From a virus, in the IMG/VR virus record IMGVR_UViG_3300042564_001059, positions 1-34,730 of that record: a DNA stretch of 34,730 nt; one strand, 5' to 3'. The notes under the pieces are model-generated. The model saw only the letters and a program-made list of their open reading frames with translations, had not been told where the DNA came from and did not search any database. The position numbers were made by a program, and so were the translations under genes. Of the stretch, positions 1 to 34,730 are shown piece by piece (positions within the stretch are counted from its first letter, which is position 1; each line of letters begins with the position of its first letter).

Positions 1-144
1 GGCGGTCGGACGTGGGTGATCGGGCCGTGGGTTGCCACCACCGCTGCGAAGTCAAGCACCAGGCAGTCGGTCTTGCCTAAGTGCGGCCTCATGCCGCGCA
101 CGGCCATTTGCAAGTAAAGCCCTGGAGACATAGTAGATCGCAAG
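1..144. repeat. Terminal direct repeat, left copy
   Basis: These 144 bases recur at 34587-34730 with a single difference (G at 18, T at 34604). The repeat lies inside the helicase gene and the difference is synonymous (Ile ATC or ATA). This is what a circular or circularly permuted genome gives when an assembler opens it at an arbitrary point. True short terminal repeats of the virion DNA are an alternative, but would less naturally fall inside a gene. Confidence 0.9.
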
Positions 145-4247: not shown

Positions 4248-4921
4248 TTCGCACCGCCGATCTTGCTGATGATGTGATAGAGGTCTGGCGTTTCCCAGGC
4301 GCTCAACTTGCCGCTGCGATCCTTCGCCAGCCAGAGGCCGTCGCTGTCGCACATGAGTGCCCGCTGGCTTATCCCTTCGGCGTCTTTCTCAACCCGCAGG
4401 GCCAAGACTTCGTCGAAAAAGTAAGGCAAGGCCTGGCCGGTCTTGTTACCCGGCATTGAGGGCGAGTAAAGAACCCGGCCCATCTCGTCCTGCGTCTTCT
4501 CGAGCTTTGCCGACATGTAGACGTGGCGACCAGGCAGGTCGCGAAAGGCGCGGATGATATCGGCCATCTGTTCTTGCATCGCGCCATAGGCTGCGCGTGG
4601 GTCTTTGTTGCTCTTCTTCTCGGCGTTCAGGACCACCTCGGCGATCTCCGAGATAGAGTCCAGCGCCACGCTCTGGTAATCCTTTGCCTCGTGGCTGTCG
4701 CGCAGCCAGCTGTATGCCTCCATCAGGGTGGCCATGCTGGTCACCTCGATGTAGGGCAGGTTGGCATCTTGAATGCTCAAGAGCCCACCCTCGGCGCTCA
4801 GGATGATTGGCGCTGGCAGGGTTGCTGCTAGCGTTGTTTTGCCTGCGCCGGCTTGGCCGTAGACAAGGATCTTGGCGCCGTTCGACGCCAGGGTGGACGT
4901 GGTTTTTAGGTTGATGGCCAT
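4244..4921 (-). CDS. Sak4-like RecA-fold ATPase (AAA_24)
   Basis: 225 aa. The Walker A motif is GQAGAGKTT (22-30), and the Walker B strand is SVALDSISEI at about residues 83-92. A Gln/Lys-rich central region (GRHVYMSAKLEKTQDE) follows. Length and motif order fit the phage Sak4 family, RecA-like ATPases that promote single-strand annealing or exchange, usually with a single-strand binding protein; the DUF669 gene two genes downstream is the likely partner. The ribosome binding site GGAGG lies seven bases before the ATG, inside the end of the 51-aa gene upstream. Plain P-loop ATPase with another use is the fallback. Confidence 0.85.
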   Translation of the reverse strand: MAINLKTTSTLASNGAKILVYGQAGAGKTTLAATLPAPIILSAEGGLLSIQDANLPYIEVTSMATLMEAYSWLRDSHEAKDYQSVALDSISEIAEVVLNAEKKSNKDPRAAYGAMQEQMADIIRAFRDLPGRHVYMSAKLEKTQDEMGRVLYSPSMPGNKTGQALPYFFDEVLALRVEKDAEGISQRALMCDSDGLWLAKDRSGKLSAWETPDLYHIISKIGGAK

Positions 4922-4923
4922 CT

Positions 4924-5079
4924 TCAGGCCTCCAGCATTTTGATGAGCTTGGCGCGGTGCGCAATGTAGAAGTCCAACATCTTGGCAACATCCGCCGGTC
5001 GGAGGTCAGCGGCTTGCGCTTGCTCCTTGGCAATGAAGCGGTCGCAGTCGGCGATGGCTTGGTTGATCTTTGCGTTCAT
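4924..5079 (-). CDS. Hypothetical 51-aa helical protein, first gene of leftward unit
   Basis: Begins MNAKINQAIADCDRFIAKEQ and ends RAKLIKMLEA. It is wholly helical and charged, probably a short coiled coil. AAGGAA lies five bases before the ATG, and the stop is two bases from the ATPase start, so translation is likely coupled. It is the first gene after the divergent promoter region and so among the earliest leftward products. No family recognised. Confidence 0.65.
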   Translation of the reverse strand: MNAKINQAIADCDRFIAKEQAQAADLRPADVAKMLDFYIAHRAKLIKMLEA

Positions 5080-5208
5080 CTTGCTTCCTTCTGTGTCAGC
5101 ACTCGTCGGGAAATCCGTTCAGTGCATGGATGCCATCCTACCTCATCTTTTCGACTTGTGCTATACTTTTTTTCGATCTTCACCAACTTTTTTTCAGGAG
5201 TACGTTCT
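5080..5208. promoter_or_regulatory. Divergent control region between the two transcription units
   Basis: All genes left of here run leftward and all genes to the right run rightward, up to 29367, so this 129-bp gap must hold the main promoters for both directions. It contains two T-rich tracts (about 5166-5173 and 5188-5194). The rightward promoter is annotated separately. For the leftward direction I see only weak matches (TTGGTG 15 bases from TATAGC, overlapping the rightward -10), so that promoter is not placed. A small HTH protein encoded immediately to the right may bind here. Confidence 0.6.
5159..5167 (+). promoter_or_regulatory. Extended -10 promoter for rightward unit
   Basis: TGCTATACT matches an extended -10 element (TGn followed by TATACT), so a good -35 is not needed; none is visible at 17 bases. 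It lies 42 bases before the ATG of the HTH gene at 5209. It reads like a host sigma70-type promoter. It is the best promoter-like match in the gap. Confidence 0.5.
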
Positions 5209-5397
5209 ATGATGACCATCGAGCAAGTCGTTGCCGCTCTGCAAGACCGCAAGGTGCGGGTCGTTGCGGCGGCCACCGGCCTGCACTACAGTACCGTTCT
5301 TGCCCTCCAGCGAGGTCGCTCCAAGCGGCCACGCATCACCGCGATACAGCGGTTGTCGACCTATCTACTGAAGGCGCCGAATGGCAGACCTGACTAG
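5209..5397 (+). CDS. Small HTH protein, Cro-like
   Basis: 62 aa, beginning MMTIEQVVAALQDRKVRVVA. Residues about 6-50 give a helix-turn-helix (VVAAATGLHYSTVLALQRG), followed by TAIQRLSTYLL as a closing helix, the layout of Cro and other XRE-type regulators. Start 5209 has AGGAG eight bases upstream; ATG at 5212 is also possible. It is the first rightward gene, beside the divergent promoters, and so a good candidate for the switch or timing regulator. Its end overlaps the primase-helicase start by 17 bases. No matching long repressor gene is present, so lysogeny is not implied. Confidence 0.75.
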   Translation: MMTIEQVVAALQDRKVRVVAAATGLHYSTVLALQRGRSKRPRITAIQRLSTYLLKAPNGRPD

Positions 5398-7327
5398 CAT
5401 CTTCGGCGGCGTCTACGCTCTCCCAGAGCCCAAGAGGATTGAGCCACCAGACGAGCAGCTAAGAGAGGCAATGGTAGAAGCCGGCCTGGAGCCGCCAGAG
5501 GCGATCTACCTAGACGGCAAGCTACACAGGTTCAACTCTGGCACCAAGGGCACACCGGGCCACAGCAAGCCCGGTTGGTACGTGGCATTCGGCGATGGCG
5601 TACCGGCAGGGCGGTTCGGGTGCTGGCGGGCAGGCATCGAGCAGGCCTGGCAGGCTGAGATGGGCAGGAAACTTACCATCGCGGAAGAAATGGCGCACAC
5701 CCGGCGAATGGCCGAGGCCAAGGCGGCACGGGAGGCCGAGCAGGAGCGCAGCCAAGCGGTTGCCGCTAGCACCGTGGATGCGATCTGGACAGCAGGCGGC
5801 GCAGCGAGCGCCGATCACCCGTATCTAGCACGCAAGGGCATCGCACCCAATGGCGCAAGGATCACCGGCGACGGGCGGCTGATGGTCCCGCTATATGGCG
5901 CCGAAGGTGATCTAGCCAGCGTGCAGTACATCGCAGTCGATGGCGAGAAACGCTATCACCCCGGCGGCGCTACTGGGGGCAAGTTCTGGATGCTCGGCGA
6001 GCCTAGCAGCACCATCTACATCGCCGAGGGCTTCGCGACTGCCGCAACGATTCACCAAGCCACCGGCAAGGCGTGCGCAGTGGCGTACAGCGCCAGCAAC
6101 TTGGTCCCAGTCACCGGAGCGCTGCGGGAGCGGTTCGGCGCACAACAAGACTTGGTAATTGTTGCCGACAACGATGCGTCTGGAGTTGGCCAGCGCTACG
6201 CAGAGCAGGCCAGCGCCAAGTATGGCGCCAGGTCAGTGATGCCGCCCGCGGCTGGGGACGCCAATGATTACGTTCAGGCCGGCAACGACCTGGCGGCGCT
6301 GCTCGAGCCTGCAGTAAGCGACTGGTTGATGCCGGCGGACGAGTTCTCCCGCCAGCCAGCGCCGATTCGGTGGATGGTCAAAGGCTGGATTCAGCAAGCG
6401 GCGCTCATCATGATCCACGGCCCGAGCGGAGGCGGGAAGACCTTCGCCACGCTCGACTGGTGCCTGCGGATGGCCCAGGGCCAACCGGACTGGTTCGGCA
6501 ACCGGGTCACGCCAGGGGCGATTGTCTACCTTGCCGGCGAGGGCCACCATGGTCTGCGCAGCCGGATAGCGGCTTGGAAGGAGCACCATGGGAATGGTCA
6601 GGCGCTTAATATGTATCTCAGCAAGAGCGGCTGCGATCTAGATACTCCAGAGGGCTACCGCAAGGTCTCCGAGCACATCCGGGCGCTACCCATCAAGCCC
6701 GCCATCATCACGATAGATACCCTGCACCGCTTCAACTCCGGCGATGAGAATTCATCCCAAGACGCCAAGGCGATGCTTGATGCCTGCGCTATGTTAATGG
6801 CTGAATTCAATTGCACCATCATACTAGTCCACCATACTGGAGTTTCTGAAGAGACTCAGCACAGGGCTCGAGGCTCCAGCGCTTGGCGTGGTGCGCTGGA
6901 CATTGAGATCAGCATCGTGCCGGCCAAGGGCGACGCGCCGATGGAGATTATCCAGCGCAAGAGCAAGGACGCCGAGTTGGCGGCTACCTTATATGCTACG
7001 CTTGAGAAAGTAGTTATTCCGGGTTGGTTTGATGAGGACGGCGAGCCGGTGACGAGCGCGGTGCTGGTGCAGGCAGGCGAGCCCACCAAGACCGCCAAAC
7101 GCAAGCTGCGCAGCACCAACGCGAACGTGGCTTGGGAGGCGTTCAAGACGCTCAATGCCAGGCTGGTCGCCAGGTCGGAATGGAGGCAAGCGTTCGATGA
7201 ACTGTCAGAGTTGGAGTCTACGAACAGCAAGAAGCAAGCGTTCGCCAGGGCCGTTGTGGAGCTTCTGGAGCGAGGCGAGATGGTCGAGGAGGAGCCCGGA
7301 ATTTATGAGCTGGGGATCGGATTTTGA
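5381..7327 (+). CDS. TOPRIM primase and RepA-like AAA helicase fusion
   Basis: 648 aa with two enzymatic parts. The N-terminal half carries a TOPRIM fold: IAEGF with Glu216, and the DND acid pair at 263-265 (VIVADNDASG), as in DnaG-type primases and phage P4-like proteins. A zinc-ribbon at the very start is not visible. The C-terminal half is a RecA-fold hexameric helicase-like ATPase of the RepA/AAA_25 type: Walker A GPSGGGKT at 347-354, Walker B IITIDTLHRF, and ILVHHTG. A winged-helix-like tail ends the protein. It probably primes and unwinds at the phage origin. The GGGTACA array starts three bases after the stop, which fits an initiator encoded beside its origin. Confidence 0.85.
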   Translation: MADLTSIFGGVYALPEPKRIEPPDEQLREAMVEAGLEPPEAIYLDGKLHRFNSGTKGTPGHSKPGWYVAFGDGVPAGRFGCWRAGIEQAWQAEMGRKLTIAEEMAHTRRMAEAKAAREAEQERSQAVAASTVDAIWTAGGAASADHPYLARKGIAPNGARITGDGRLMVPLYGAEGDLASVQYIAVDGEKRYHPGGATGGKFWMLGEPSSTIYIAEGFATAATIHQATGKACAVAYSASNLVPVTGALRERFGAQQDLVIVADNDASGVGQRYAEQASAKYGARSVMPPAAGDANDYVQAGNDLAALLEPAVSDWLMPADEFSRQPAPIRWMVKGWIQQAALIMIHGPSGGGKTFATLDWCLRMAQGQPDWFGNRVTPGAIVYLAGEGHHGLRSRIAAWKEHHGNGQALNMYLSKSGCDLDTPEGYRKVSEHIRALPIKPAIITIDTLHRFNSGDENSSQDAKAMLDACAMLMAEFNCTIILVHHTGVSEETQHRARGSSAWRGALDIEISIVPAKGDAPMEIIQRKSKDAELAATLYATLEKVVIPGWFDEDGEPVTSAVLVQAGEPTKTAKRKLRSTNANVAWEAFKTLNARLVARSEWRQAFDELSELESTNSKKQAFARAVVELLERGEMVEEEPGIYELGIGF

Positions 7328-7329
7328 CC

Positions 7330-7437
7330 GGGTACAGGGTACAAGCGGGTACAAGCGGGTACAGTTGTACCCGGGCGAAAGACGTGTTTGGGGTACAACC
7401 GGGTACACACCCCTTTAGGGGTGTACCCGCTGTACCC
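7330..7437. repeat. GGGTACA array (candidate origin, operator or packaging site)
   Basis: Six direct copies of GGGTACA (starting at 7330, 7337, 7347, 7357, 7391 and 7401) and three inverted copies, TGTACCC (7366, 7422, 7431), lie in 108 bases. Copies at 7337, 7347 and 7357, and at 7391 and 7401, are exactly 10 bases apart, one helical turn, so a protein could bind along one face. CGGGTACA-GT-TGTACCCG (7356-7373) is a perfect palindrome around a 2-base centre. ACACCCC-TTTA-GGGGTGT (7407-7424) is a hairpin. The rest of the gap to 7545 has TATCCGGATA (7459-7468) and an AT-richer stretch near 7497-7527. Position between the primase-helicase and terS fits an origin or a pac/TerS site. Confidence 0.75.
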
Positions 7438-7545
7438 GAACATCGTGCGGAAAAAGCGTATCCGGATAGGGAAAACCCTTAGATGGGGTGGTCTGCTTAA
7501 TTTTTAGGCAGTTGTGGGAAAATTTGGGATAGGGGCGATTCAGAC

Positions 7546-7971
7546 ATGTCGAAAATAACAACAGTGGCCGACAAGGCGCAGCAAATCGAGACGGTGCTGT
7601 CTGGCATGGCGACAGAAGGCCTGAGCCTGCGCAAGGCGTGCCTGAAGGCTGGCGTAGCCAGGCCGACGTTTTTGTTGTGGTGCGATGGTGACGCGGCGCT
7701 GGCTGACCGCTACACGCGTGCGCGAGACGAGCTCATAGACGGCATTGCCGATGAGATTCTGTTGATTGCCGACGAGCCGGTAAATAGCACAGACTCTGGA
7801 GCTACTGACTCTGGATCAGTCAACAAGCAAAGGCTGCAAATAGAAAGCAGAAAATGGCTACTATCTAAATTAGCCCCAAAGAAATATGGGGATAAATTAG
7901 AATTATCTGGAGATTCTGAAAACCCATTATTGTTTTCAAGAATTGAGCGAGTAGTAATCAAGAATGGGTAA
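7546..7971 (+). CDS. terS: Terminase small subunit
   Basis: 141 aa. The N-terminal half has the helix-turn-helix typical of TerS, LSLRKACLKAGVARPTFLLW, followed by the ADRYTRARDELIDGIADEI helix that supports oligomer formation. It recognises the packaging site and loads the large subunit. It overlaps terL by eight bases. The last third (about 7800-7971) is AT-rich, with codons such as TTA, ATA and AGA unlike the rest; two GACTCTGGA copies sit at the border. The ribosome binding site is weak (AGGGG, ten bases away). Confidence 0.85.
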   Translation: MSKITTVADKAQQIETVLSGMATEGLSLRKACLKAGVARPTFLLWCDGDAALADRYTRARDELIDGIADEILLIADEPVNSTDSGATDSGSVNKQRLQIESRKWLLSKLAPKKYGDKLELSGDSENPLLFSRIERVVIKNG

Positions 7972-13470: not shown

Positions 13471-13499
13471 TTAAACAAGATAATACCGCTTAGTGTGCT

Positions 13500-13531
13500 A
13501 TCATGCTCTTGAGTCAAATCAGGAGCATGAT
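13500..13531 (+). promoter_or_regulatory. Hairpin covering the GIY-YIG ribosome binding site
   Basis: ATCATGCTC (13500-13508) and GAGCATGAT (13523-13531) form a perfect 9-bp stem with a 14-base loop. The Shine-Dalgarno AGGAG (13521-13525) is partly inside the right arm, and the ATG follows at once at 13532. In transcripts that start upstream the site would be hidden, reducing endonuclease translation. T4 I-TevI is known to be held back in this way. Confidence 0.65.
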
Positions 13532-14278
13532 ATGTACACCCTCTACAAGTTGCTTTTTGCGTCAGGCAAGGCCTACATTGGGCAAACGGTGCGCACTATG
13601 AACACCCGCATTGCGCAACACAAACGGTCCGCTAGAAGCGGAAGTCTGCTTCCTGTGCATTGTGCGTGGCGTAAGTATGGTGAGCCGGCCATCTCATTGA
13701 TTGCTGAGTTTGACACGCAAGAAGAACTGCACGCCGCTGAAAAAGCAGCAATCATTGCCTTAGGCGCGTTGGCCCCACAAGGGTACAACGTCGCCTATGG
13801 TGGTGAAACAGCCCCATCCAAGAATCCAGATGTTGCCGCAAAGATTTCCGCAAAAGCTACAGGCCGCAAGTTTTTAGACACAACTGCATGGTCTGATGCT
13901 GCATCAAAACTTTGGCAGAACGATGAATATCGTTTGAAAGTGACTGAAAGCCTTAAGGCGGCATGGACAGATGAGATGCGCGCGGCACGATCTTTGAAAG
14001 TAAAACTGGCATGGCAAGATCGCAAGGCATCCGGCTATGCAATGCCAGAATCAACCAAGCAAAAACTAGCCGCTTACGAGCGAACTCCAGAAACCCGTGC
14101 CAAGATGAGCGTCTCGGCTAAAACTCGCAAACGTTCGCCGCGAGACGACAGCACAAAGCAGAAAATTGCAGGCAAGACAGCCGGCTCGTGGCAAGACCCT
14201 GTTATCAGGGCCAAGCGCCTAGCATCCATGCAGTTGGCCCGTGAGAAACGCAAACAGGAAAGAACACCATGCCCCTAA
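13532..14278 (+). CDS. GIY-YIG homing endonuclease with NUMOD-type repeats
   Basis: 248 aa. The N-terminal domain begins MYTLYKLLFASGKAYIGQT, a GIY-YIG variant (YTLYK...AYIGQT), followed by the catalytic Arg in the RIAQHKRSAR region and the Glu in EKAAIIALG. The C-terminal half has repeated Lys-rich DNA-binding units (STKQKLAAYERTPETRAKM, STKQKIAGKT), as in NUMOD3-containing homing enzymes. Start 13532 has AGGAG six bases upstream, hidden in a hairpin. It sits right after the coat gene and overlaps the next gene by ten bases. It is probably a selfish insertion, free-standing, with no visible group I intron. Confidence 0.88.
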   Translation: MYTLYKLLFASGKAYIGQTVRTMNTRIAQHKRSARSGSLLPVHCAWRKYGEPAISLIAEFDTQEELHAAEKAAIIALGALAPQGYNVAYGGETAPSKNPDVAAKISAKATGRKFLDTTAWSDAASKLWQNDEYRLKVTESLKAAWTDEMRAARSLKVKLAWQDRKASGYAMPESTKQKLAAYERTPETRAKMSVSAKTRKRSPRDDSTKQKIAGKTAGSWQDPVIRAKRLASMQLAREKRKQERTPCP

Positions 14279-34092: not shown

Positions 34093-34730
34093 CTAGTTTC
34101 CATTTTCTTTGAAGCACACGGTGATATTTACCGTCCATCTTGTACTCGATCATGTCTGGCGGCTCGCCGCAGGAGAGAATGTCGGCCACCACGTCCAGCG
34201 GGTTGTAGAGGTCGGACACAAGCACATCGGCACCCGAGGCGATCTCTGCCACAGTCCGCCTGGCCTTCTCGCCCGCATAGCCTGGATTGTTGATCGGCAT
34301 GTATTCGCTCACTGGCGCGTCCGACAATGCCCCGTAATAGGTGACCATCAACATCTCCTGCCCACTGGCCCGGCTGACATGCTTGCGCCAGCGCCAAGCA
34401 GTCACCTCCATCTCTTTGCCCGCCAACCCCATAATGTCATCGTTCTGGAGCTTGAGCTTCTTAACTTCAGGCTCCGGGAACGGATGCCCGCAGGCAGGGC
34501 ATACACGGGCCGCCAGGGCGCATAACTCCTGACAGTTGTCGCATACCTTCACTGGCGCGGCCCCCTCCTTCTCGCCCTTCTTGTTAGGCGGTCGGACGTG
34601 GGTTATCGGGCCGTGGGTTGCCACCACCGCTGCGAAGTCAAGCACCAGGCAGTCGGTCTTGCCTAAGTGCGGCCTCATGCCGCGCACGGCCATTTGCAAG
34701 TAAAGCCCTGGAGACATAGTAGATCGCAAG
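34073..34730 (-). CDS. SF2 helicase, C-terminal part (continues at left edge)
   Basis: C-terminal part of the helicase starting at 1106; the 34587-34730 stretch duplicates 1-144. It holds the helicase motif VI (YLQMAVRGMRPHLG), then a zinc-ribbon CDNCQELCALAARVCPACGH (C-x2-C ... C-x2-C), then a beta-rich C-terminal domain (EMEVTAWRWRKHVSRASGQE, then MLMVTYYGALSDAPVSEY). Extra C-terminal zinc and domain parts are common in phage SF2 helicases of the type encoded with recombination genes. The stop overlaps the 63-aa gene. Confidence 0.9.
   Translation of the reverse strand, partial: LRSTMSPGLYLQMAVRGMRPHLGKTDCLVLDFAAVVATHGPITHVRPPNKKGEKEGAAPVKVCDNCQELCALAARVCPACGHPFPEPEVKKLKLQNDDIMGLAGKEMEVTAWRWRKHVSRASGQEMLMVTYYGALSDAPVSEYMPINNPGYAGEKARRTVAEIASGADVLVSDLYNPLDVVADILSCGEPPDMIEYKMDGKYHRVLQRKWKLDAPQTA
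34587..34730. repeat. Terminal direct repeat, right copy
   Basis: Matches 1-144 except at 34604 (T; G at 18). Bases 19-144 (126 long) are identical, as would follow from k-mer overlap joining in an assembly with one variant. The unit length is thus 34,586 bp. Confidence 0.9.

Follow-up and report, generated by a model that had tools for sequence, protein, structure and literature searches.

What is the function of a compact array of GGGTACA repeats that lies between the gene for a primase-helicase and the gene terS in the 34.7-kb record of a phage whose portal and coat genes are of the P22 type and whose small terminase (TerS) is of the Sf6 type? The earlier note on this DNA had counted nine copies, six direct and three inverted, within 108 bases, five of them in 10-base steps, and had taken them for an array bound by an initiator or by TerS, that is, an origin, a pac site or an operator. 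Here, the window denotes the whole stretch of 34,730 nucleotides that was analyzed.

An array of short repeats adjoins the primase-helicase gene

An exact recount agrees with the number, orientation and spacing given before: plus-strand copies start at 7330, 7337, 7347, 7357, 7391 and 7401 and minus-strand copies at 7366, 7422 and 7431, with 10-base steps at 7337-7347-7357 and 7391-7401. On both strands together the window holds 12 copies of GGGTACA versus 1.87 expected from 100 dinucleotide shuffles, none of which (0/100) reached 12. Nine of the 12 are packed into 108 bases, and the three outside the array are single copies, about as many as chance gives; in other 218-bp stretches of the window no 7-mer is repeated more than six times. 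Two details had to be amended. The array does adjoin the helicase gene, with its first copy starting at the third base after the TGA (7325-7327) and not after three bases, and the stretch read as a perfect palindrome is interrupted at its center by a GT, which is not self-complementary; it therefore consists of two head-to-head copies, with perfect 8-bp arms and a 2-nt spacer. A hairpin with the core ACACCCCTTTAGGGGTGT (7407-7424), overlooked earlier, has two iterons as its outer stem. The features of the locus are collected in Table 1.

Table 1. Features of the array locus, in positions of the window
Feature	Position	Strand	Remark
Gene of a small Cro/C1-type HTH protein, preceding the helicase gene	5209..5397	+	Rejected as reader of the array
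Primase-helicase gene, 648 aa, proposed initiator	5381..7327	+	Toprim_3, AAA_25 / RSF1010 RepA-like motor, C-terminal winged helix (predicted)
Codons 556-648, predicted C-terminal winged-helix domain, proposed iteron reader	7046..7324	+	AlphaFold2, identity profile, matched-core comparison
Iteron array, nine exact GGGTACA	7330..7437		Kept at the same place in all close relatives
Head-to-head iteron pair, 8-bp perfect arms, central GT	7356..7373		Such a pair recurs in most arrays
Hairpin, outer stem of two iterons	7400..7429		Core words enriched after helicase genes
Leader, array to terS	7438..7545	+	40-bp stretches up to 62% A+T
Sf6-type small terminase gene (terS)	7546..7971	+	Adjoins the array here, not in many relatives

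The primase-helicase combines a Toprim_3 domain (aa 212-300, E 1.2e-11), with the motif EGFATA at aa 216-221, and an AAA_25 / RSF1010 RepA-like motor (aa 318-489, AAA_25 E 1.6e-36), for which RSF1010 RepA (1g8y) was the only PDB sequence match (E 3e-5). The C-terminal stretch has no Pfam match and is predicted to be a winged helix: the AlphaFold2 model shows the element order H-E-H-H-E-E of that topology with a core pLDDT of about 93, and its structural matches were largely winged helices (linker histones, cullin WHB, Rok, MCM), none of them with E below 0.001; the P4 alpha domain was absent among the matches listed. The model of the full-length protein is of lower confidence (pLDDT 76, pTM 0.40), with T7 gp4 and Twinkle as best PDB matches and RSF1010 RepA also among the matches.

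The two ends of the window (1-144 and 34587-34730) overlap, the last 100 bases recurring at 45-144, and they split a helicase gene on the minus strand; the record therefore looks like a circularly permuted, near-complete genome. Judged by eye, the translation of 1087-1848 resembles an HNH endonuclease and that of 13493-14278, after the coat gene, a GIY-YIG endonuclease.

Arrays follow the same helicase gene in other phages

Viral and genome collections were scanned for this helicase, which gave 251 genes with enough sequence 3' of the stop codon and, after dereplication at 90% identity, 102 loci. An array was scored where one hexamer occurred at least five times in a span of 160 bp that lay no more than 400 bp from the stop. 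By this measure 73 of the 102 loci carry an array after the helicase gene, versus 34 of 1,853 control windows from the same loci. The earlier note had named absence from close relatives as a reason to abandon its reading; the array is present in all of them, and the reading is not refuted on this point. The repeated word differs by lineage (GGGTACA, CGGTACA, GGGACA, GGACAA, CGTAAC, GGTAAC, GGTTCA, CGGGAC, CCGTAC and others), also among isolates: Salicola phage CGphi29 has GGGGACAT, Idiomarinaceae phage 1N2-2 CGGTACA and Alteromonas phage PB15 GGTTCAC. A layout recurs, with direct copies, an inverted copy, a spacer, direct copies, the hairpin (with a CCTWTAGG-like core) and an inverted copy. 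Its core words are enriched after helicase genes, CCTATAG being found at 14 of the 73 loci versus 0.4 expected and CCTTTAG at 18 of 73 versus 1.7. In L085 the N-terminus of the protein does not align to the TOPRIM part, yet motor and tail are of the same types and the array is there.

Searching from the side of the array leads back to the helicase. Each of the 30 viral contigs that contain the array's initial 19 bases (30/30) encodes this helicase, with its end no more than 39 bp from the match, and so do 31 of 42 contigs that contain the phased GGGTACA triple. Among the other 11, contig L337 starts inside the array, one (L346/L350) encodes a distant AAA_25 helicase some 330 bp ahead of its array, one (L347) has an array (14 TGTACCC from 3404 on) after the gene for a DUF927 protein whose tail is a Cch-type HTH, and eight (8/42) have an array with no known helicase in the flank examined. 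The array after the gene is missing in a subclade (L042, L073, L079 and their kin) whose helicases are about 62% identical to that of the window, with 60-68% identity in the core, and have a similar C-terminal type; no array was found elsewhere in three near-full records of 31-37 kb.

Several further observations concern the form and setting of these arrays. The helicase type of L347 is unrelated to that of the window, and its array word is similar. The 37.7-kb record L338, which yielded no AAA_25 protein, has at 2505 a GGTACA array with hairpin near-identical to that of L346; this array could be an origin without an initiator of its own. In L110, L126 and L132 the entire array, including the hairpin, is flipped in polarity relative to the helicase gene. 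G-rich words occur in array regions at 18 of 73 loci (GGGGGCA, 1.8 expected) and 20 of 73 (GGGGCAA, 3.1 expected), lying in array spacers as in L055, L078, L250, L267 and L334; the window has a weak version, GGGCGAA, at 7373-7379.

The array is probably not a TerS-bound site

P22-like phages have their pac site within terS or close to it, and in the window the array stands directly before that gene, so one might take it for the TerS-binding site for headful packaging. Elsewhere the two part company. Only 5 of 44 suitable array loci have a TerS match within 600 bp; in relatives with the same array a ParB-like or another gene occupies this place, and TerS, where detected, is more than 1.4 kb off. 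The array of the window is 99% identical to those of L016 and L024, despite following genes that are unrelated (identity about 0.4). Because the next gene changes and TerS is often more than 1 kb away in close relatives, the array is most unlikely to be a pac site, and the proposal of a TerS-bound element is dropped; we would give it only the slightest chance.

The array word and the helicase tail change together

Six relatives share the gene after the array and differ in the array word: L016, L013 and L020 have nine GGGTACA, and L029, L032 and L031 have nine CGGTACA. Across this switch the DNA identity is 0.87-0.94 over helicase codons 1-555 and drops to 0.63-0.64 over codons 556-648. It is 0.74-0.75 for the array, 0.88-0.91 for the sequence immediately 3' of it and 0.94-0.96 beyond that. 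The divergent block is thus confined to codons 556-648 and the array, which indicates that tail domain and array were exchanged, or diverged, as a unit. These comparisons of sequences suggest that the repeat word and the helicase tail domain vary in step, as a lock and its fitting key would.

A matched-core comparison of 127 distinct array-bearing proteins links the array to the C-terminal domain in the same way. At a core identity of 0.95-0.985 the C-terminal identity was 0.92 for pairs with the same word versus 0.59 for pairs with different words, the pairs being non-independent and mostly from the clade of the window; lower bands of core identity pointed in the same direction. A partial Mantel test of iteron against C-terminal domain over 44 loci gave a weak signal that does not separate this domain from the core.

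The same switch bears on the proposal that the array is the operator of the small HTH protein encoded upstream. Repeats and inverted pairs would suit a dimeric regulator of the Cro/C1 type, and its gene precedes that of the helicase. The HTH protein is, however, identical between L016 (GGGTACA) and L029, L031 and L032 (CGGTACA), remaining unchanged while nine of nine copies switch their word. No GGGTACA, with up to one mismatch allowed, was found at 4900-5210, where the protein's own promoter region would lie, and no promoter-like site was found at the array. Since the array changes independently of the HTH protein, we reject the operator of the earlier note, for which the odds now seem very long.

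Evidence that the array is probably a replication origin

Some loci of this type also carry DnaA boxes. One to three perfect boxes (TTATCCACA) flank the array at 13 of the 73 array loci (including L088, L267, L230, L085, L172 and L232), a density of 0.52 per kb beside arrays versus 0.01 per kb elsewhere in the same loci, or about 50-fold; none was found beside the array-less relatives, nor is there one in the window itself. This evidence for an origin is independent of the repeats. The earlier note had also proposed a look at cumulative GC skew, which has no clear inflection at the array in the window. Its reading as an origin or initiator-bound array is supported by the constant place of the array, the joint change of word and tail and the DnaA boxes in relatives. 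We consider it about 80% probable, judging from sequence comparison, that the array is the phage's replication origin or main initiator-binding element and is read by the primase-helicase encoded upstream.

We infer that binding, melting, priming and the start of replication take place at the array, in the following manner. The C-terminal winged helix of the primase-helicase would bind the GGGTACA iterons that follow the gene. Helicase subunits would be loaded at the direct and inverted copies, which are partly in steps of one turn, and might form two assemblies that face each other around head-to-head pairs. Opening of the DNA would then fall to the RepA-type motor and priming to the TOPRIM domain, possibly, as a guess, at the hairpin. 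The array itself has no conspicuous AT-rich stretch at which the DNA might open. The leader between array and terS is a possible opening region by inference only; it is not conserved in relatives with a different downstream gene.

A different division of labor is conceivable, in which the helicase binds the array and the array is a control or accessory site, acting in copy-number control or autoregulation or in the manner of crr, with the DNA opened elsewhere. The satellite phage P4 indeed needs two elements, the cis-required region crr just past the alpha gene and ori more than 2 kb away, and the lack of a conspicuous AT-rich region inside the array would fit. Against this, no second array was found in the window, nor in array-bearing relatives read at length (G006, positions 1-40000; G007, whole), and DnaA boxes cluster at the arrays. 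We regard a control site as unlikely, at something like one chance in eight.

An element just 3' of a gene, with a conserved hairpin, might also act as RNA or as transcription terminator of the helicase gene, and the array strand does fold well, beating 200 of 200 shuffles (z -4.67), which is what inverted repeats would give. There is, however, no T run and no terminator call, and Rfam yielded at the array two insignificant matches (E 0.21 and 0.42), far below gathering scores. The direct repeats are conserved too, and polarity is flipped relative to the gene in the three loci named above. The missing T run, the lack of a significant Rfam match and the flipped polarity speak against a terminator or RNA, to which we attach hardly any probability.

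Rfam matches above gathering score numbered three in 16 relatives (tRNA, abiF and int-alpA), none of them called part of an array. The abiF RNA (RF03085) lies at 7468-7504 of L081, Salicola phage CGphi29, and the int-alpA RNA (RF02996), just above its gathering score, at 6266-6333 of L235, 277 bp after the helicase stop.

Implications

That iterons can lie beside an initiator gene is known. In the literature searched, which comprised papers other than those under subscription, no such arrays are described for this helicase type, nor did we find there a version that relies on one protein with a RepA-type motor, or any account of how widely it is spread, of its recurring layout or of the joint change of tail and array. 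The arrays may represent a widespread, unannotated class of phage origins in which the address is set by a swappable cassette, made up of the tail winged helix and the adjoining iteron array; we hold this broader idea at even odds. If it is true, phages with a near-identical replication backbone would gain a new origin specificity by swapping the cassette, in analogy to plasmid incompatibility groups, and might in this way evade co-infecting phages and satellites that compete with them or steal their origin. It would thereby become testable whether escape from such competition or from satellites is a reason for phages to change their origin specificity.

The proposal would provide an origin for many cultured and uncultured phages in which the start of replication is unannotated, along with a sequence rule for locating it, namely a repeated hexamer and a hairpin just 3' of a gene for a primase with RepA-type helicase. 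With dozens of C-terminal domains, each matched to an iteron word, nature would also supply the data for working out a protein-DNA recognition code.

Comparison with known replication systems

The archaeal plasmid pRN1 (orf56/orf904) has a small repressor gene, a replication protein with a C-terminal winged helix and an origin 3' of it (PMC4234260). The window shares the order of repressor gene, replication gene and downstream element, the last being the origin in pRN1. The pRN1 protein is a primase-polymerase with an SF3 helicase, unlike that of the window, and its origin is a 100-nt stem-loop without iterons.

For the Rep protein of staphylococcal pathogenicity islands (SaPI), PMC7581432, citing Ubeda 2007, states that the C-terminal domain recognizes iterons directly downstream of the rep gene. 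SaPI Rep/ori and SCCmec Cch2 resemble the window in having iterons directly 3' of the initiator helicase gene and matched to its C-terminal domain, the match in the window being made by comparison of sequences. SaPIs use a separate primase and a different helicase type, and they are satellite or island elements and not P22-like phages.

P4 alpha binds repeats through a winged helix, then unwinds and primes (PMC4234260). In the P4 sequence crr comprises ten type-1 iterons (GGTGAACA), 46-345 bp past the alpha stop, and ori has six in steps of 10-11 bp. Alpha and the window protein are alike in uniting a TOPRIM-type primase and a helicase in one protein, with the primase motif EGYATA in alpha and EGFATA in the window; the repeat-binding winged helix at the C terminus of alpha has a predicted counterpart in the window protein. 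Both systems have short iterons in direct and inverted orientation, GGTGAACA resembling GGGTACA in form. They differ in the motor, which is an SF3 helicase in alpha and RecA-like, of the RSF1010 RepA type, in the window, and in the number of arrays, two in P4 (ori and crr) and one in the window.

At RSF1010 oriV the work is divided among RepC, RepA and RepB', and the ssi hairpins (ssiA, ssiB) are primase starts (PMC4234260). The RepA-type hexameric motor and the combination of iterons with hairpins are common to RSF1010 and the window. RSF1010 employs three separate proteins, whereas primase, motor and proposed iteron reader are fused in the window; the iterons of RSF1010 are longer. The window protein thus unites a P4-like primase, an RSF1010-like motor and a predicted winged-helix tail, and it is for this combination that we propose it as the binder of its own iterons.
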